Origin: Platerodrilus igneus | Lineage: Eukaryota > Arthropoda > Insecta > Coleoptera > Lycidae | Length of the DNA stretch: 64,000 nucleotides | NCBI GenBank assembly: GCA_036346225.1 | Contig: JARFIW010001480.1 | Span: forward strand, 12,493,001-12,557,000 | Direction: 5' to 3' | Shown: piece after piece, positions 2,081-63,216 of the stretch | How positions within the stretch are numbered: the stretch's first letter is position 1 | Layout: every line of letters begins with the position of its first letter | Notes under the pieces: model-generated | Databases searched by the model: none | What the model saw: only the letters and a program-made list of their open reading frames with translations | What the model was told of the DNA's origin: nothing | Made by a program: the position numbers and the translations under genes

Positions 2081-2386
2081 GATTGGCCATTTCAAATGTA
2101 CCTACACATTTCCGAAGTTCTAAATTACTAGAACAGGTGAAATGGCTTGCGGATTCTAATGAGCTAAAGAGCCAAACTACAGGTCCAACCAAAGTAGTAG
2201 GGTCGTTAGTGAGAAACCAGACTAAGACAGTTCCCCGAAAGAGGGCAGCGGCTCTTTCGGTACTTAGATTGGCAGAGACCATAGGGGTCGGTATGGCAGT
2301 CTAAGACACACTACCGCGATGTGGAAGGCAACGGGAAACCACCACATTATCTTCCAAGTACACAGCGTACTTAAATTGTTACATAC

Positions 2387-3283
2387 ATGATGGCATTCTC
2401 TGGGGTAAAAGATTCCGGAGTTAAAATAGTCCCCCATTCGGATCTCCGGGAAGGTACTACTTCGGAGGATGCGATCGGAAAGTTAAAAATAAGAGTAGGG
2501 AACATTCTGCAAGTCGGAGCGTGGAATGTTAGAAGTATGAAGCAAGTAGGTAAGCTAGAGAACCTAAAAATCGAAATGAATAGGTTATCACTAGACATAG
2601 TAGGGATCAGCGAAGTTCGGTGGCCAGAGGCGGGGGATTTTTGGAGTGGAGACTTTAGGGTAATTCATACAGAAGCAGAGGAAGGAAATCTGGGTGTGGG
2701 AATAGTTATGCGGAAAAAGATAGGATACTGTGTAGAAAATTACTTACAAAGGAACGAAAGAGTACTCATGGTTAGATTAGAATCTAAACCGGTAAACACA
2801 GTAATAATACAAGTATGCATGCCCACCTCTAGCTACAGTGACGAAGAGGTAGAAGCCATCTACAAAGATATCGAAGACATATTAAGATACGTAAAACGAC
2901 ATGAAAGTTTAATAATTACGGGGGATTTTAATGCCGTGGTAGGTGAGGGTAGGGAAGTAGCGGTAGTAGGTTTATTTAGTTTAGGCACAAGAAACGACAG
3001 GGGAAATAAGCTGGTAGAATTTTGCGACAAGAACAATTTAATCATCACAAACACATTATTTCAACATCATGCTAGAAGACTATATAAGTGGAAGATGTCA
3101 GGAGATATAGAAAGATATCAAATAGATTACATTCTTGTTAGACAACGGTTTAGGAATCAAATAAAAAACTGTAGAAGCTACCCAGAAGCTGATATAGATA
3201 CTGACCTCAACAACGTACTTATAAAGGCCGCACTTAAATTTAAGAATGTGAAAAAAAGAAACGGAAAAGGCACTTGGACTTAG
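2387..3283 (+). pseudogene. RTE endonuclease domain
   Basis: The 298-residue frame contains an exonuclease/endonuclease/phosphatase (AP-like) fold as in RTE elements: GAWNVRSMKQVGKLENL at the start, catalytic Glu in GISEVRWPE, ITGDFNAVVG with Asp and Asn, RNDRGNKLVEF, and IDYILV. This enzyme nicks target DNA to prime reverse transcription. Near the end, where the family usually has a Ser/Thr-Asp-His motif, the frame reads DTDLNNVL, so the catalytic His seems lost to a small change. The frame ends at 3283 in KGTWT and the reading continues in other frames, so the polyprotein is broken here. Confidence 0.88.
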
Positions 3284-5353
3284 AGAAACTAAAAGATAAA
3301 GATATTCAAGAAAGATTCGAAAAAAGGTCAAATGAATTGCTCAAAGATATCGGGAAAATATCTGATACTAAGGAAGTAGAAACAGAATGGAATAACATTA
3401 AAGCCAGCCTAGACATGGTGGTCAGAGATATTTTGGGGTATACACAAAAAGAGAATAAGGAACCATGAATAACAAAGGATATCCTGAAGTTAATACAAGA
3501 AAGACAAGAATACAAAAATAAATCAGACGAAACGGGAAAACAAAAGTACAAAGCTATAAAATGGGAAATTATTAGAAAATGCAGGAAAACTAAAGAACAA
3601 TGGATTGATGAAAAGTGCAAAGAGGTACAAACGAAGATGGAAATAGGAAAAACAGACGGAGCATACAAATTAATTAGAATGAATTTTAGGGATATAAAAC
3701 CGTATAGCAAAAATATAAGAAACGCACAAGGAAACGTCATCGTAGAAAACGTAGAGAAAGTGGGTAGATGGCAAGAATGTTTAGGGAATTTTTATGCAGG
3801 AGAGGAACTAACTGCCTTAGAACAGGAATCAGACATTGAAAATGATGACTTGGGATATCCTGTACTTAGAGCTCATCTCTGAATTAGCATTAAAGAGTCT
3901 GAAAAATGGTAAGGCGCCGGGTACAGATAAGGTGCAAGCACAAACTCTAAAAGCCGCTGGACAAGCAGTAACAGAACGTCTCTTCCAACTTGTAAGCTAT
4001 ATGTATGAGACAGGCGAGATACCCAAAGATTTCAAACGTAGCATCATAGTAACTATACCAAAAAAGAAAAGCGCGGATTGTTGTGAAAATTTTCGAACAA
4101 TAAGTTTGACAACACACGTGTCAAAAATATTAACTAGAATTGTACAAAGACGAATGGAAAAACGAGCTGAAGAAATACTAGGAGAAGATCAATTTGGGTT
4201 TAGGCGAAACAAAGGAACACGGAAGGCTATTTTAGCTCTGAGAGTGATAACGGAGAAAACGATAGAAAAGGAGAAAGCTTGTATATAGGGTTTGTAGATC
4301 TGGAAAAAGCATTCGACAATGTAAAATGGAAAAAAATGTTTAAAATACTCAAAAAGATTGGAATGAGTTATAGGGATAAACGAATAGTACATAGCTTATA
4401 CAAAGAGCAAACAGTAGTAATAAAATTAGAGCAGGAACGTAGAAAAGTAAACATTAGGAAAGGGGTGAGACAGGGATGTTCCCTATCCCCATTAATTTTT
4501 AACTTGTACATAGAAGAGGCAATGAATACTCTCAAATGCAGGAAGACATTTGGAATTACTATGCAGGGACAAAAAATTGATATGCTTAGATTTGTAGATG
4601 ATATAGCTGTATTAGCGTCTAGCAAAGACGAGTTAGAAACTGCTCTTAATAAAATGGAAACGGTTCTAACAGAGAGATACGGTGTGAAAATTAACAAAAC
4701 TAAAACTAAAGTTCTAGTATGCCAAGTTGGGGATAATAAATCAAAACAAGGATACAAGTATGTAACACGAACTTACAAGAGGTTAAGTTTTTCTGCTACC
4801 GAGGAAGCCAAATAACGCAAGATGGGAAAAGCACAAAAGATATAAAACAAAGATTAGCACAAAGTCGTGCTACATTTAACAAGAAAAAGCAACTACTGTG
4901 CTTAAAGACCACAAACATAGAAACAAGAAAAAGATTGCTTAAAACATATGTGTGGAGCACAGCACTGTACGGCTGTGAAACCTGGACAGTAGGAGAAGCA
5001 GACAAGAAAAAGGTAGAAGCCTTTGAAATGTGGTGCTACAGACGTATGATGAAGATATTATAGACGAACTTAAGAACGAAAAGGTACTAAAAATAGTAGA
5101 GGAAGAAAGAAATATGTGGAAAACGGCAAAAAAGAGGAGAGATAGGATGATAGACCACATACTACGGCATGAGCGAATAGTGCGGAATATATTAGGAGCA
5201 GAGATAGGAAAAAAGAGAAGAAGATGCAGACCTAGGTTAGACCACTGCACACAGATAGTAAAAGATGTAGGCTGTAGGGGTTTCAGGAAAATGTGTAGGC
5301 TAGCCCAGAATAGAAATCAATGGAGATACGCATCCAACCAATCCCAAGATGCA
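3274..5353 (+). pseudogene. RTE reverse transcriptase and C-terminal region, frameshifted
   Basis: Pieces in several frames together cover the RTE polymerase. Visible motifs in order: SLKNGKAPGTDKVQAQ (about 3900), FGFRRNKGTRKAI (about 4195), DLEKAFDNVKW with the first catalytic Asp (about 4300), RQGCSLSPLIFNLY (about 4470), and FVDDIAVLASS (about 4590), where the usual FADD catalytic box is FVDD. A one-base shift separates the frames near 4270. The C-terminal part carries a CETWT-type block (about 4980), DRMIDHILRHERIVRNIL and a CRLAQNRNQWRYASNQ block ending at 5353. The enzyme copied its own RNA at the nicked target; this copy cannot. Confidence 0.88.
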
Positions 5354-15540: not shown

Positions 15541-17466
15541 TTGTACAGAGTTTTAGCGGAAGCGTTGAAAACAATTTGTAATTTCGTACTTACGCTTTCC
15601 GATTTCACAACGCAATGATGCGGGATGTAATAAGAAAAGTCCGAATGATACCCAATAATAACAGATTGCATATGTTGAGAATCAAGATATTCACGCATGA
15701 ACGAAACGTACTGTTTGCGAACACGAGATTGCTTACGTAGACGATTTTCTAAAGAAACAAATCGTTGTAAGGCAAGATCACGACTACCTGGAAAAAATGG
15801 TTCCTGATCTCTAAACGGCAGTGAAACGACACATCGACCTTATTCATTGCGGCGAAACGTATCGACAAAATGTTTTTCAACAAGAGTTTCTTCAGGCGTG
15901 AAAGGTTGAGCGGTGGGGACAGCTTCGACTTCACAGAACTTAGCGATAATATCTTCTAATGGGGAAGTAAAATCTGTCATACAAAACAAGCTAGTTATAT
16001 CAGCAGCGGGCGGGGGAGGTATGTTTCCCATTAAAACATATCTGAAAATGGTATTAATAGCAACAGGTTGATCGCAATCACCCTGGATGCGACCGTTTAA
16101 TAACACTTGGGGGAAAATATCCGCGCCAAGTAAGAAATCAATGGGCCAGATTGAGCAAAGAGCGGATCAGCTAGCTTGAGGTTAGCCAGATGATTGAAAT
16201 GTTGTAAAGAAATATTAGAAGTAGGTAAATTTTCACAAATTTTGGGAAGTACTACAGCTTGAAAATTAAAAATCGGTGAAGAAACACCTATTGGTTTGAG
16301 CGAAACGGCGACAGTGCCATGCTGAGCAGCAGAGCGCATGAAACCTAAACCACTAAGGTAAGAGAATGTGGAGTAGTACGAAAACCTAAACGTTTCACAC
16401 CACTTTTCGAAATTAAAGGAAGTCATGCTGCCCGAATCAAGTAAACCGCGAAATTGCTGGAAAGAACCAGAGCAATCAGCAATTTCCACTTGAACGCTGA
16501 AAAGTGAAACAACTGAAGGTTTAGCTAAAGAATTAAATAAAACGACATTCGAAGTAGACGAACTTGACGAAGTCGATGATTCCTCAGAGACACGAGGAAC
16601 GGAAGGCTTGAAGCGGTCTTGAATAGCGGGAATAGTGCGAGGTGATACCTTAGAGGCGGCGGTGTCCGGACTCAAGCGAGCCTGGTTACTACCAGCGAAA
16701 GCGGGTTTAGACGAAAAGCGATCGAAGTGCAATAACGAATGATGACGTTAATTGCATTGGCGGCATGAAAAAGTAGACTGGCATTTATTTAAAATGTGAG
16801 ATTTACGAAGGCAATTAATACAAAGATGTTGGTTTTTTGCAAAGTTGTAGCGATTTTGCGACGAGAGTTTAACGAAATCATTACAGCGATAAAGATTGTG
16901 ATCTTGGTTGCAAAGCGGACATTTATTAACACTAGATTTTGTCTGTATTAACTTGGAAACGGCGGATCAAGGTTTAGACGGGTTGCTGGAATGAATAACT
17001 TTGTGTAAATCAGTTTTATGATTTAACGACAAATTCGATAAAGATTTAGACTGTCAAATAAACGACTTTCCCCATCAAACGTAGGCAGCGACAGCGGAGG
17101 GAGTGATACTTTCGACTTTAAGTTATCTAGCAACGGGGACACCTCAGCGTAAGGCGAAGATTGGCTGATAAACAGCTTAAAATAGAGCGCTTTTATTTTA
17201 AAGTAGTTATTATCAAAACGTTTACGTACAACGTCTTCCAATTTAAATTTTTCATCACCGTCACCGGCGGAAGAAATTGCCCATACTATCCAATTATGAT
17301 GTGTAAAGAAATTTTCTTTAACGGTTTCCAAAGATTCATACTTAGCGCGAAATAAATCTAAAAAAGCGGTTTCAACTGTACATTTTTTAGCAATTTCAAA
17401 CATTTCCTCTAGAGAATTGATGGCGATGTTCCGTAGAAAAGAATTACGTTTTAACTTTTCTGCCAT
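15541..17466 (-). pseudogene. BEL/Pao gag-protease with truncated pol
   Basis: On the minus strand, ATG at 17466 starts MAEKLKRN and a gag-like frame to 17023 with LPPLSLPTFDGE, typical of BEL/Pao gag. The next part (about 16940-16750) encodes zinc-knuckle-like CPLCNQDHNLYRCNDF and a second Cys/His cluster. A 211-residue frame at 16732-16097 holds GLLDSGSMTSF, a retropepsin-type Asp-Ser-Gly active site. Then 16106-15840 (YVLMGNIPPPP) and 15698-15540 (YYIPHHCVVKSES, VFNASAK) reach the start of the RT-proximal region. Reverse transcriptase, RNase H and integrase are absent. Stops and shifts interrupt the frame. Confidence 0.82.
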
Positions 17467-22894: not shown

Positions 22895-25192
22895 GTATTA
22901 TTATCTTGTAATGTGCAAGAAAGAAATAAATAAAGTAGAGGGAATTTCATTTGCCCTGTTTAGTTTAATCCATGCTGGAGGTGAACAGGTTCATCAGTAC
23001 GAGATCTTTGAAAAACGTCATGTTAACAGCACTTCGGTTTAGTCCTTTAAGTATACAAATTGTATAATCAACGTCAATGAAAAAATCCCCCAAGGCAAAG
23101 AACCTTGAACCTAGTGGTTGGATCATATTTAAGAGTATGCTTAATTTATTACTTGTAAGAAAAGCATTGATTCCGCTAGGATATCGATGTTTTTGTCTGA
23201 AAAATAAACAGCATGTTGAATGTATGAGCCGAACATTCTGATGGAGAAAAATTATTTTATTGAAACATAAATACCAGAAGCTAAACGAAACAGTGAAATG
23301 CCACTCTTCGAAATGCTAACTAGTTAACGGAGTTTCAAGTACTCTAACAACTGCTTAGTATGGGAAACTTTAATTCTTGAATATATAAAGTGGCTTTTAA
23401 TGTAGTGGGTTTTAAAAGTTTCAACTAGTGAATTCTTAAGCTATACTAAGAACTAAGGTAATAACTTTAAGTAGAAGTAATTTTGTTAACTCTTAGCTTT
23501 TCCAATCAGAACAGCATGCCTGTGTTGAGCAAACTAATTGTTATTAATATATATTTCAAACAATCTATTTTGAATTATAAATTAAAATTATGCCATAATG
23601 TACAAAAATGGTACTTATCTGCCTTAGATATATATTGCTGTAATTATAGAGTTAATTTAGGGGTAGGTTAAGTCATTGGAGTCATAGAATAAACAAGGGA
23701 AACTCCCAAGTGGCAGAAACATATAATTACAGATATTGGAAGAGTAAATGGGTTATTATGAATATCATTAGTTGCGAGCACACTGTGTGTAGCAGTACAA
23801 ACGATTAAAGCACATATCCAAGAGTAGCTACTAGCAATGAGTAGAATTTAAAAATGTAACGAAACGCATTAAAATTAAATCATTGAAAAACCTGCATGAA
23901 TTGGCTAGATAAACATTCAAAAAGTGTGTTAAGATATTATCGCAAACGCACGCAGAAATTGAGCGTTATTTGAAAAACGTACGTGATCTAAAAGAATCAC
24001 AGTTGTTTAAAAATCCAATTTATTAGGAAATAAACAAACACCAAATTTATTCGATTTAGATTAGAATAAGGCCAACAAACAATATTACGTGATCGATATG
24101 AACAAAAATTCCTGGGTTTTCTGAAGTAGATGTAAGGTATAACATTTAAATTACGTGACTTAGAGCACCGCGTCAAGCAATTAAAATACATACAATTGGT
24201 AAACTTTCCAAAATAACAAGTGATAATACGCTTGGCCTCGCCTAGCACATAAAGCCAACGAATCACAAACAAAATGGGGACGATCCTATAAATATCTTGA
24301 AAATTGACTATCGAGTTAGTATACTTTAAGACTGGGCAGTTACTATATTTGAAAGTGCTAAATATTTACGTGAATAATAAATTAAATTAACAGTGAAATT
24401 CTAGAGTGTATAATTGTGCAAAAAGTGCCGTACTTCTGAGATGGCTCGCAATTATCATCTCATTACCATCTCAATTACCCTCTGAACTACTATCTCAATT
24501 ACCATCTGAATAACATCCGGAAACCACCATTACAATCTTAAATTACAATCAAAATAATGTTACGATTCCTGTTAGAACTTTAAATAACGAGCCATTACGA
24601 TCAGCAATACAATTTTGGAGAATGCTGCCTGTTCAAGCAAATTGATGGTAATTGCGGAAATGAAAAACCTTTCATCGGAAAAAACGCACCAATAACGATT
24701 TGGATATCGACTTCAATCCTTAGGAGCACCTATGAAATCACTTCAGGTTAGAGATTTTTGATATGACTTATTTTTAAAACTGTTTTATCTCAAATATTTT
24801 GGATATAATTTATTTTTTAAACTGTTTATCTCAATAATAATTTAAAGTGTAAGAGCCGACAAATTGGGGTTTCTTGTGTAAATTTATGAAAAGCATAGAC
24901 ATTTTGAAACATTTCAATAGGTCTTTAAAGGTAATAAAAAAACTCGTTTAGCTGGCTTGATTTTCTAAAAATTTGACAAATGCATATGATTTTAAAAGGG
25001 AGACGATATTTAAAAGGGTTGTAAATATGCAATCATTATACTGTGTATTGTAGAAGTGCTTTATTCAATTGAATCAGCTAGTCGAGGCAAAAGAAAATTA
25101 TAAATTAACATTTCCACAAGTGCTTAAGTGGTATAATAGTATAACACAACATTTTATTGCACCCAATCGTAGGGGCTGAGCGAGTAACACAG

Positions 25193-25194
<2 letters not shown>
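22895..25194. other. Non-coding interval with weak short repeats
   Basis: No gene is seen. At about 24447-24535 a degenerate run repeats ATTACCATCTCA-like units. At about 24755-24835 two 40-bp units (ACTTATTTTTAAAACTG and ATTTATTTTTTAAACTG, each followed by TTTATCTCAA) form a direct repeat. The rest is unassigned AT-rich sequence. Confidence 0.45.

Positions 25195-25228
<34 letters not shown>
25195..25228. repeat. (TA)n microsatellite
   Basis: Uninterrupted alternating TA of about 34 bp, directly before the left arm of the long inverted repeat. Confidence 0.97.
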
Positions 25229-25234
<6 letters not shown>

Positions 25235-25535
25235 AAACTTTCTCTGCAATCTGCAGTTACAATTAAACCAATTACATGAGATGTATCTGTAAATACACAT
25301 TGTATTTACCTATACAAATCAACTGGTATTTGCATAGCCATTACAAAACAATTACTTGATCATTTTGTAGGAAAACTGGTCAATGGATGTTTTTCCTACA
25401 AAATGATCAAGTAATTGTTTTGTAATGGCTATGCAAATACCAGTTCATTTGCTATAGGTAAATACAATTTACAGACATCCATGTAATTGGATTTAATTGT
25501 AACTGCAGATTGCAGAAAAGTTTGCTTTATATATT
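25224..25535. repeat. Long inverted repeat, about 150-bp arms
   Basis: The left arm (about 25224-25375) and right arm (about 25391-25535) are near-perfect complements. Matching blocks include CTGCAATCTGCAGTTAC with GTAACTGCAGATTGCAG, and ATTACTTGATCATTTTGTAG with its exact complement. The loop of about 15 nt reads CTGGTCAATGGATGT. The right arm has lost a short piece relative to the left. A third copy, in the orientation of the right arm, lies at 25852-25973. Confidence 0.93.
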
Positions 25536-25814
25536 TTAGTGTGCCTTAAAGGCAAGAATTGGACGCCGCCACGGGAAATAATGTTACTATTGCATTAAAT
25601 ATATGCATGTACATTGTTAATATCCCAAAGGCAGAACGTATTTGTGATAGCCATCTATAGAACACAGTATAGTTTCGAATCAACTTCTGTACAGTTTCAG
25701 CCTTAGTGCTAGTTCTAGCCAACTGATGGCGCTCTATCTTCCTTTCGCCAACGTACAGAGGTTTCTTCGTGCCTATACTTTGAGGTTTCTTGATATTTTG
25801 TTAGGTTAAGACTA
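25536..25814. other. Unassigned sequence between the repeat arms and the ribozyme motif
   Basis: About 280 bp with higher GC than its surroundings and no open frame of note. Because it lies between copies of one repeat and leads directly into the hammerhead motif, it is probably part of the same element, of unknown family. Confidence 0.4.
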
Positions 25815-25859
25815 GTCCATTCTGACGAGACCCAAGAGGTCGAAACCTGGTCAATGGAT
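25815..25859 (+). ncRNA. Hammerhead ribozyme motif
   Basis: All invariant core positions of a hammerhead ribozyme are present. CTGACGA (25822-25828) matches CUGANGA. It is followed by stem II GACC (25829-25832) and GGTC (25838-25841) around loop CAAGA, then GAA (25842-25844). A very short stem III follows (ACC with GGT around a single T), with the cleavage triplet GTC ending at 25852. Stem I pairs TCCATT (25816-25821) with AATGGA (25853-25858), extended by a possible G-T pair. Predicted self-cleavage is after C25852. The tiny stem III resembles the minimal hammerheads known from retroelements such as Penelope-like elements, which often need two copies to cleave well. Activity is inferred. Confidence 0.82.
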
Positions 25860-25969
25860 GTTTTCCCTACAAAATGATCAAGTAATTGTTTTGTTATGGC
25901 TATGCAAATACCAGTTCGATTTGTATAGGTAAATACAATGTGTATTTACAGATACATCTCATGTAATTG

Positions 25970-25973
<4 letters not shown>
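25852..25973 (+). repeat. Third copy of the inverted-repeat arm, directly after the ribozyme
   Basis: Starting at the predicted cleavage site, AATGGATG is followed by CTACAAAATGATCAAGTAAT and TATGCAAATACCAGTT, the same sequence as the right arm of the inverted repeat. It continues through CAGATACATCTCATGTAATT, the complement of the left arm, and runs into a TA microsatellite. This copy matches the left arm more fully than the right arm does. Confidence 0.9.

Positions 25974-26007
<34 letters not shown>
25974..26007. repeat. (TA)n microsatellite
   Basis: Uninterrupted TA run of about 34 bp at the far end of the third repeat copy. Confidence 0.97.
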
Positions 26008-26009
<2 letters not shown>

Positions 26010-26038
26010 CTTCACGTTTTATTTGCTGAATATTAATT

Positions 26039-26085
26039 TAAAATAATTCAATTTATTGGGGATTGCAATCCCCAATAAATTGAAT

Positions 26086-26092
<7 letters not shown>
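26039..26092. repeat. Perfect 54-nt palindrome
   Basis: Two 27-nt arms are exact complements with no spacer; the centre GGGGATTG/CAATCCCC lies at 26065/26066. It runs straight into the next TA microsatellite. An uninterrupted spacer-free palindrome like this would form a cruciform or hairpin. Confidence 0.95.

Positions 26093-26124
<32 letters not shown>
26091..26124. repeat. (TA)n microsatellite
   Basis: TA run of about 34 bp directly after the perfect palindrome. Confidence 0.97.

Positions 26125-37714: not shown

Positions 37715-37755
<41 letters not shown>
37715..37755. repeat. (TA)n microsatellite
   Basis: TA run of about 41 bp. Confidence 0.97.

Positions 37756-39905: not shown

Positions 39906-39944
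<39 letters not shown>
39906..39944. repeat. (TA)n microsatellite
   Basis: TA run of about 39 bp. Confidence 0.97.
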
Positions 39945-61084: not shown

Positions 61085-63216
61085 ACTTTCATACCGTATC
61101 CCTCTGTTAGACCCGTTGCCATTTCATTAAGAAGAGCTTCTAACTCTTCTTTGCTAGATGTTAATACCGCTATATCGTCTGCAAATCTAAGCATATCAAT
61201 CTTTTGTCCCTACATATTAATTTCAAATGTCTTCCTGCATTTGACAGTATTCATTGCCTCTTCTATGTACAAGTTAAAAATTAATGGGGATAAGGATATC
61301 CCTGTCTCACATCTTTCCTAATATTTACTTCTCTACTTTCTTGCTATAATTCTATTACCGTTGTTTGCCCTTTGTATAAGCTATGTACTATCCGTCTATC
61401 CTTAAACCTCACTCCAATCTTTTTGAGTTTTTCGAACATTTCTTTCCATTTTACATTATTGAATGCTTTTTCCAGATCTACAAACCCTATATATACGCTT
61501 TCCCCCTCTTCTATTGTTTTCTCCATTATACCATCAGAGCGAAAATAGCTTCCCGTGTTTCCCTGTTTCGCCTAAACCCTAATTGATCTCCCAGTATTTC
61601 TTCAGCTCGTTTTTCCATTCATCTCTGTATAATTCTAGTTAATATTTTTGAAGCGTGTGCTGTCAAGCTTATTGTTCGAAAATTTTTACATCTATCCGCG
61701 CCTCTTTTTTTTGTATAGTTACTATGATGTTATGTTTGAAATCTTTGAGTATCTCGCCTGTCTCAAACAAGCTTACAAGACGAAAGAGACGTTCTGTTAT
61801 TGCTTGTCCAATGGCTTTTAGAGTATCTGCTTGCACCTTATCTGTACCCGGCGCCTTACCATTTTTTAGACTCTTTAATGCTAATTCAAACTCACCTCTA
61901 AGTATAGGATATCCCAGGTCATCATTTTCAATGTCTGATTCATGTTCTAATGCTGTTAATTTCTCGCCTGAAGATACATTCCCTATATATTCCTGCCATC
62001 TAGCTACTTTCTCTACATTTTCTATAATGACGTTTCCTCCCGCGTCACTTATATTTTTGCTATATGGTTGTATATCCCTAAAATTCATTTTAATTGATTT
62101 GTATGCTTCGTCTATCTTTCCTATTTTCATTTTAGTTTGAACCTCGTTGCATTTTCATCAATCCATTGTTCTTTAGTTTTTCTGCATTTGCGAATAATTT
62201 CCAACTTTATGGCTTTGTATCTCTGTTTTCCCGTTTCGTCTAATCTATTTTTGTTTTTTGTCTTTTTTCTATTAAATTCTGGATATCCTTTGTTATCCAT
62301 GGTTTTTTATTTTCTTTTTGTGTATATCCCAGAATATCTCTGGCCGCCATGTCTAAGCTGGATTTCTACTTCCTTAGTTTCCGAAATTTTCCCGATATCT
62401 TTCAGCAATTCATTTGACTTTATTTCAAATCTTTTGTGGATATATTTATCCTTTAGCTTCTCAAAGTCAAAGTGCCTTTTTCCGTTCCTTTTTTTCAGAT
62501 TTTTAAATTTAAGTGCGGCTAACTTCTACAGTCTTTTACATGATTTCTAAACCGTTGTCTAACAATAATGTAATCTATTTGATATCTTCCTATATCTCCT
62601 GGCATCTTCCACGTGTATCGTCCTTTAGCATGATGTATTTGTGATAGTTAAGTTGTTCTTGTCGCCAAATTCTACCAGCCTATTTCCCCTGTCATTTCTC
62701 GTGCCTAAACCAAATAAACCTACTATCGCTCCTTCCCTACCCTTACCTACTACTGCATTAAAATCACCCGTAATTATTAAATTTTTATGTCCTTTTACGT
62801 ATCTTAGTTTGTCTTCGATATCTTTGTAGATCGCCTCTACCTCTTCCTCACTGTAGCTAGGGGTGGGCGTGTATACTTGTATTATTATTGTATTTACTGG
62901 TTTTGATTCAATTGTAACCATGAGTACTCTTTCGTTCTTTTGTTAGTAGTTTTTCACACGTCGACCTATCTTTCTTCGCATAACTATTCCCACACCCGAA
63001 CTTCCGTCCTCTACTCCTGTATGAATTACCCTGAAGTTTCCACTCCGAAAATCCCCCCTCTGGCCAGCGGACTTCGCTTATTCCTACTATGTCAAGTGCT
63101 AACCTATCCATTCCAAGTTTCAGGTTCTCTAGTTTACCTACTTGTTTCATACTTCTAACATACCACACTACGACTCGCAGAATGTTTACGGATCTTTTTC
63201 TATTCTTTCGGATCAC
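61085..63216 (-). pseudogene. RTE endonuclease and N-terminal RT of copy D
   Basis: Frames at 63216-62908 and 62921-62625 give the endonuclease: MKQVGKLENLKLGMDR, GISEVRWPEG and ITGDFNAVVGKGREGA. Frames at 62130-61669 (ALKSLKNGKAPGTDKVQ) and 61526-61344 (DLEKAFNNVKW) give the start of the polymerase up to motif A, where the second Asp position reads Asn-Asn. A CSLSP-like block and RT box follow before the insertion. Several shifts and stops are present. Confidence 0.82.

Follow-up and report, generated by a model that had tools for sequence, protein, structure and literature searches.

The window, by which we mean the whole stretch of 64,000 nucleotides from the beetle Platerodrilus igneus analysed here, contains a hammerhead ribozyme motif within a two-armed insertion flanked on both sides by (TA)n microsatellite. 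The insertion is probably an animal-type retrozyme, a non-coding and non-autonomous hammerhead element mobilised in trans by an endonuclease-bearing Penelope-like element (PLE), a reading in which we infer circular RNA, self-cleavage and the partner PLE. The motif and the mobile unit belong to a known kind; what is new is the evidence from two families for PLE-type two-site, two-strand priming of retrozymes. The features of the insertion are as follows:

25195-25229, left (TA)n target flank (TRF, 17.5 copies of AT, 100%)
25221-25375, minus strand, inverted arm covering unit nt 12-168 (97.5% identity by blastn to the 486-nt reference unit)
25371-25381, head-to-head junction (from the sequence, the start of the direct repeat and inspection of the junction; placed by eye)
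25382-25852, plus strand, full direct unit of 471 nt between successive cleavage points (blastn)
25816-25858, plus strand, type I hammerhead ribozyme (RF00163, 26.0 bits, and descriptor; predicted cleavage after C25852)
25853-25976, plus strand, partial second copy, unit nt 1-126 (blastn, 96.8%)
25974-26007, right (TA)n target flank (TRF, 17 copies of TA, 100%)

The hammerhead comprises the elements already recognised in the first-pass annotation, including (i) CTGACGA, (ii) the stem II GACC/GGTC with a CAAGA loop, (iii) GAA, (iv) GTC, and (v) the six-pair stem I TCCATT/AATGGA, all present on the plus strand. Stem III is as short as that annotation stated, but its drawing as three pairs round one base fails: three pairs round one single base cannot form a closed hairpin, and within one molecule the stem of the window motif reduces to two pairs closing a 3-nt loop. 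Rfam model RF00163 (Hammerhead_1) aligns to 25816-25858 along its full length (model positions 1-45 of 45), with the conserved core and the three stems in order (E 9.8e-4 when 1301 bases are compared with 4227 families). The covariance-model match proposed earlier as a check is thus obtained, although its score lies under the gathering score of 34, and a search of the whole window at Rfam gathering thresholds returns no match. A strict descriptor, demanding the core and minimum stem lengths of 4 bp (stem I), 3 bp (stem II) and 2 bp (stem III), recovers a single place on both strands of the window, namely this motif, and none in 19.2 Mb of first-order Markov sequence; the window motif is confirmed as real. 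Two other candidates were rejected: 15864-15895 on the minus strand fits a loose hammerhead pattern and is not recovered by the stem-checking descriptor, and the microRNA-like Rfam matches at about 25300-25470, all under their own gathering scores, are read as the palindrome.

The hammerhead fold of the isolated 43-mer amounts to -4.4 kcal/mol against a minimum free energy (MFE) of -11.0, and the folding energy of the 53-mer 25810-25862 is no better than that of shuffles (z -0.61), so that the lone window monomer may cut poorly. The stem III sequences, ACC(T)GGT in the window, ACGCGT in a second hammerhead family of this genome (family 2, see below) and ACTAGT in the resident PLEs, are palindromic or nearly so, and dimer hammerheads would therefore be favoured. 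A co-folded pair of family-2 motifs (MFE -39.9 kcal/mol) reads by eye as a double hammerhead, and the MFE structure of the corresponding dimer from the window family (family 1) is not a clean one. Minimal hammerheads of PLEs reportedly cut as dimers, as Lunse et al. are said to have found in 2017. A whole 486-nt unit from a relative is much more stable in folding than shuffled versions of it (z -7.07, 0/100 as good), and stable self-pairing has been reported for retrozyme RNAs (PMC7229834).

The two arms of the window insertion terminate at different points of the unit. The outer end of the inverted arm lies at the second of two reverse transcription start sites (site 2), thereby including a 44-nt tail, with its final bases merging into the (TA)n; the direct arm starts at about CTGGTC, slightly upstream of the cleavage point, and its partial second copy terminates at site 1, with no tail. 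The first-pass annotation had a repeat copy begin exactly at the cleavage site, a claim that has to be withdrawn, given that the direct repeat starts at 25371/25842, about 10 nt upstream (an early start that is partly overlap with the inverted arm), and that no sampled family-1 end falls at unit nt 1 or 486, the RNA-3' ends clustering at 124/168. Its assignment of the motif to a non-coding mobile unit is borne out by many genomic copies and by the lack of any ORF of at least 80 aa overlapping 25195-26007, such as the reverse transcriptase/GIY-YIG ORF of an autonomous PLE, and its pointer towards retroelements and Penelope was right.

Several further observations concern the surroundings of the insertion. 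The central unit of the window carries small deletions at 25430-25500 that are absent from both flanking arms. A second small head-to-head palindrome occupies 26008-26124 within the same (TA)n cluster, in which the left arm (26008-26065) exceeds the right arm, starting at 26066, by about 32 nt, a surplus resembling a tail; a longer copy of it in another sampled stretch (L014:379-740) seems to hold a PLE-type pLTR motif. Two more long (TA)n runs, at 37715-37755 and 39906-39944, are possible targets of the same machinery. In addition, CACNGCAA or close variants adjoin (TA)n runs at 25188-25195 and in L012, L020, L036, L037, L062, L064, L065, L076, L079 and L086, as though these runs had once ended an older repeat, possibly a SINE; 21 of 250 sides of (TA)n runs start with TGCT or TGCC.

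In the genome, of 2.71 Gb in 1723 contigs, the query 25815-25975 occurs in at least 41 places at 97-100% identity, a lower bound for which 40 of 1443 candidates were scored. Twenty stretches round matched places were fetched, giving with the window 21 sampled family-1 stretches; the copies are those most like the query, the sampling is not random, and the classes were set partly by eye. Family 1 forms tandem arrays of units mostly 480-487 nt long (about 485), many of them 97-100% identical to the 486-nt reference, beside which stand less-alike copies at 70-95% identity. These features fit a retrozyme of the animal type, young, non-coding and present in many copies. Metazoan non-LTR retrozymes (Cervera and de la Pena 2020, PMC7229834) likewise have a type I hammerhead once per unit, in tandem non-coding copies of low GC and high number; a type I hammerhead in multicopy tandem units, non-coding at the window locus, is what family 1 displays. 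Its unit (471 nt in the window, mostly 480-487 elsewhere) slightly exceeds the reported 150-450 nt; two favoured RNA-3' ends, a (TA)n target and two-armed insertions set it apart from the retrozymes described in the main text of that paper.

The sampled RNA-3' ends of family 1 are clustered. Among the 35 that are uncut by a locus edge, 27 fall at two unit positions 44 nt apart, 9/35 within 2 nt of unit nt 124 (site 1) and 18/35 within 2 nt of 168 (site 2), and all 27 border a TA run of at least 15 nt. The remaining eight lie at unit nt 107, 118, 161, 249, 349, 429, 469 and 472; three of them are still beside (TA)n (L010 at nt 107, L024 at nt 429, L025 at nt 118), and those closest to the cleavage point, 469 and 472, come from two less-alike stretches. 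The 5' ends of one-armed copies adjoin TA in 6/13 cases and the cleavage point in 0/13. Genome-wide pattern searches return 20 exact site-1 ends, and for site 2 they return 77 forward and 262 overlapping reverse rows, in which the reverse sites listed recur three or four times each; the reversed-pattern controls for both ends give 0 matches genome-wide.

The units within one insertion appear to derive from one template. A test on 38 full units in 16 blocks, all with an identity of 96.5% or more, gives a median of 2 substitutions between units sharing a block and of 7 between units from different blocks (0/5000 permutations); a looser test of family 1, comprising 49 units with nested old copies joined, is not significant (203/2000), and the looser test of family 2 is (0/2000). 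At 10 SNP sites each block in the sample carries one haplotype, except at site 379 in L009, and a rare haplotype is common to both arms of L015. In L009, and in L011, neighbouring blocks share haplotypes, and the blocks are therefore not all independent. Minority alleles found in at least two units are never private to one block (0, versus 16 spread over several), which is evidence against new mutations having spread locally once an insertion was made.

Copying of one circle explains one haplotype per insertion, and a homogeneous linear multimer would do so too. The template could accordingly be a linear, uncut multimer transcribed from a homogeneous tandem array, the hammerhead being a leftover or acting later, and we regard this as a serious contender that stops short of being probable. 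Homogeneous donor arrays would likewise yield one haplotype per insertion; donor arrays made in the same way would also look alike, which blunts the argument from alleles; hammerhead mutants insert normally in vitro (PMC11167929); and the isolated hammerhead fold is not the MFE structure. The lack of block-private minority alleles argues weakly against the linear multimer, fitting the copying of one standing monomer.

A second, unrelated family displays a comparable architecture. The search of the genome with RF00163 gives at least 73 matches, with 74 out of 337,018 first-look candidates scored, and the strongest match reaches 40.2 bits, over the gathering score, and belongs to family 2; some match at E up to 10 occurs in 11/14 control genomes, and one over the cut-off in 0/14. 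The fetched matches belong to a unit of about 297 nt with another hammerhead, and blastn of family 1 against family 2 returns 0 rows. Long arrays of such units occur in L059 and L060 (contigs C1118 and C1094), one fetched stretch holding 24 units that are nearly full. The block ends number 36, of which 18 fall into two clusters (6 at nt 57-62, 12 at nt 97-100); the total rises to 21/36 if three ends at nt 43 in a subfamily are assigned by eye to site 1. Most of these 21 ends adjoin (TA)n, and head-to-head copies are frequent. Family 2 thus resembles family 1 in (i) the (TA)n target, (ii) the head-to-head copies, and (iii) two favoured 3' ends about 40 nt apart, whereas its sequence is unrelated, its best hammerheads exceed the gathering score and its 3' ends are less tidy. 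The earlier expectation of a kept core with varying stems holds between the families, family 2 pairing its stems with different letters, but not within family 2, where covariation is no better than in shuffled controls; a joint MAFFT alignment of both families misplaced stem II and was left out.

Head-to-head copies occur in 10 of the 21 sampled family-1 stretches (the window, L010, L013, L014, L015, L019, L024, L025, L026 and L027). In each, a left minus arm meets a right plus arm, and both outer ends are therefore RNA-3' ends. L1 twin priming also yields an inverted plus a direct segment, through two primers acting at one target, but both segments derive from a single linear RNA that has one poly(A) end, whereas in family 1 each outer end is an RNA-3' end. 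Junction overlaps, read by eye, are 0-3 nt. Leaving out L015, with its garbled centre, the arm starts lie more than 50 unit nt apart in 7/9 junctions (in L014 barely, at 51), which indicates two joined cDNAs.

The arms also differ in their outer ends. Six family-1 insertions are mixed, with one arm per site (the window, L013, L014, L015, L019 and L027), and L026 has both outer ends at site 2; two further mixed family-1 pairs are placed from coordinates alone (C427 and C559), and all five scoreable family-2 insertions are mixed (L036, L037, L061, L066 and L071). Arms at different sites therefore make up 13 of 14 scoreable head-to-head insertions of both families, with a probability of 0.0009 if arms chose independently at 50:50, the most favourable case, and 12 of 13 (0.0017) without L015. 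Ten head-to-head insertions (L010, L024, L025, L063, L064, L065, L067, L068, L070 and L072) were left out because one or both ends lie off the favoured sites or off (TA)n. Among the matches listed for contigs C3-C765, at least 45 distinct site-2 ends were counted by hand, 2/5 of the exact site-1 ends have a site-2 end as head-to-head partner, and no two site-2 ends stand head-to-head within 5 kb.

An unlikely account of the inverted arms is snap-back self-priming of one cDNA, with an antisense template, in place of priming on two strands, as proposed for rotifer Penelope (PMC3846280). The window junction, with a 15-nt loop between matched arms, and L024 would fit a snap-back loop, being the only two whose arms start close together (about 17 and 12 nt apart, respectively); the wide separation in the other seven junctions, and scoreable outer ends that each lie at a fixed 3' site beside (TA)n, speak against it.

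The genome contains resident PLEs in which a similar anatomy can be followed. GIY-YIG (PF01541) has at least 149 genomic matches (150 scored of 6529 candidates), and pairs of them within 5 kb, oriented by eye, comprise 10 head-to-head, 0 tail-to-tail and 1 in the same direction (C170). L100 contains part of a PLE ORF (RVT_1, 43.9 bits; GIY-YIG, 31.3) with 993 homologues, the named ones among the best 120 of 993 being from a beetle and ants. In a comparison of 24 PLE 3' flanks (4 plus 20 fetched), 15 reach a (TA)n run that looks by eye like the element end, 4 lack such a run, and 5 have only runs in or near GT-rich stretches. The hammerhead core is present in L076-L078, in a sequence that differs from the retrozyme hammerhead. 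L076 and L077 are two arms of one PLE, both ending at (TA)n; one of them adjoins the run shortly past TTATTCAA and the other ends about 35 nt later, with a tail, and a similar difference in arm length is seen by eye in L094/L097, L088/L098, and L082 or L085/L093. Blastn of unit nt 1-170 against the 24 flanks detected no PLE terminus clearly resembling the retrozyme unit; apart from a retrozyme copy nested in L091, the matches were short and weak. L091 holds a PLE 3' end and a family-1 retrozyme in one (TA)n run. In summary of the anatomy, family 1, the unrelated family 2 and the resident PLEs show similar insertions.

These PLEs also bear on the quite improbable alternative that a LINE mobilises the retrozyme, a possibility left open in PMC7229834 and one that has in its favour the LINE-like endonuclease and reverse transcriptase found in the window. 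Against it, the resident PLEs and the lizard PLE (PMC11167929) offer the match for the pair of favoured 3' ends, the (TA)n targets and the head-to-head arms, and the 3' ends in the inspected family-1 stretches run into TA repeats, with no poly(A) tail. The window fragments in question, mariner-like transposase and LINE-like endonuclease/reverse transcriptase by Pfam, lie at 576-1085, 2375-4815 and 61669-62154, the last of which resembles ORF 3469-4288 by eye and has no Pfam match of its own. A DNA foldback or MITE-like palindrome with a chance hammerhead-like sequence, suggested by a palindrome flanked by TA repeats at the window locus, can be set aside as extremely improbable, being contradicted by tandem head-to-tail units, variable arm lengths and many one-armed insertions, and by the 0 descriptor matches in 19.2 Mb of Markov sequence.

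In vitro and genomic work on endonuclease-bearing PLEs provides the frame for the retrozyme reading. The lizard PLE protein cleaves and extends both strands and prefers AT-rich DNA; reverse transcription starts at two adjacent internal RNA sites, which delimit the genomic 'tail', a strand difference in start site was not seen in vitro, and hammerhead cleavage is unnecessary for insertion (PMC11167929). In rotifer Penelopes the pLTR is found inverted, usually in head-to-head orientation, and one of the inverted pLTRs may carry a 31-bp tail (PMC3846280). Endonuclease-bearing PLEs with pLTR, tail and hammerhead therefore share with family 1 the hammerhead upstream of two alternative 3' ends about 30-44 nt apart, the AT-rich target, partial tandems, the head-to-head inverted arm and the tail on one arm (PMC3846280, PMC11167929). 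The window locus differs from them in lacking an ORF of at least 80 aa and any clear similarity to the sampled PLE ends. The reverse transcriptase that mobilises animal retrozymes has been left open, with PLEs as a strong, unproven candidate (PMC7229834). The main text of that paper contains 'inverted', 'orientation', 'microsatellite', 'target site', 'head-to-head' and 'TPRT' 0 times and 'target-primed' once, and no published report of the two-armed (TA)n anatomy for retrozymes was found in a search that placed supplements and most subscription papers outside its scope.

According to the preferred mechanism, hammerheads would cut a multimeric transcript into monomers of about 485 nt, which would then be circularised, and a PLE protein would bind the stretch directly downstream of the cleavage point. 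The protein would nick one or, frequently, both strands of a (TA)n microsatellite, and reverse transcription would start inside the RNA at one of the two fixed sites 44 nt apart, usually with one start site per strand when both strands are primed. Each reverse transcriptase may circle the template more than once, giving tandem units, and the two cDNAs would be joined head-to-head with little or no microhomology. The dispensability of hammerhead cleavage for insertion (PMC11167929) means that a circle is not required. Mobilisation by a PLE is probable. Several observations count against it: no sampled PLE terminus is like the unit, the PLE hammerhead has another sequence, the lizard PLE showed no strand difference in start site, family 2 is less tidy, 8/35 family-1 ends lie elsewhere, 6/13 one-armed 5' ends and no more adjoin TA, and the Rfam score is under the gathering score.

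A more tentative extension, plausible without being the expected outcome, is that a PLE acts as a dimer on a single RNA, in many cases a circle produced by the hammerhead, and makes one cDNA per target strand, each from its own site; the optional tail would be the trace of this fixed arrangement, the two-armed insertion would be a regular product, and retrozymes would parasitise PLEs as SINEs do LINEs. Two unrelated retrozyme families and the resident PLEs, in one genome, share the unusual anatomy that is expected from the in vitro work on the lizard PLE. This anatomy makes the question of the retrozyme mobiliser directly testable and suggests a role for the two PLE start sites.
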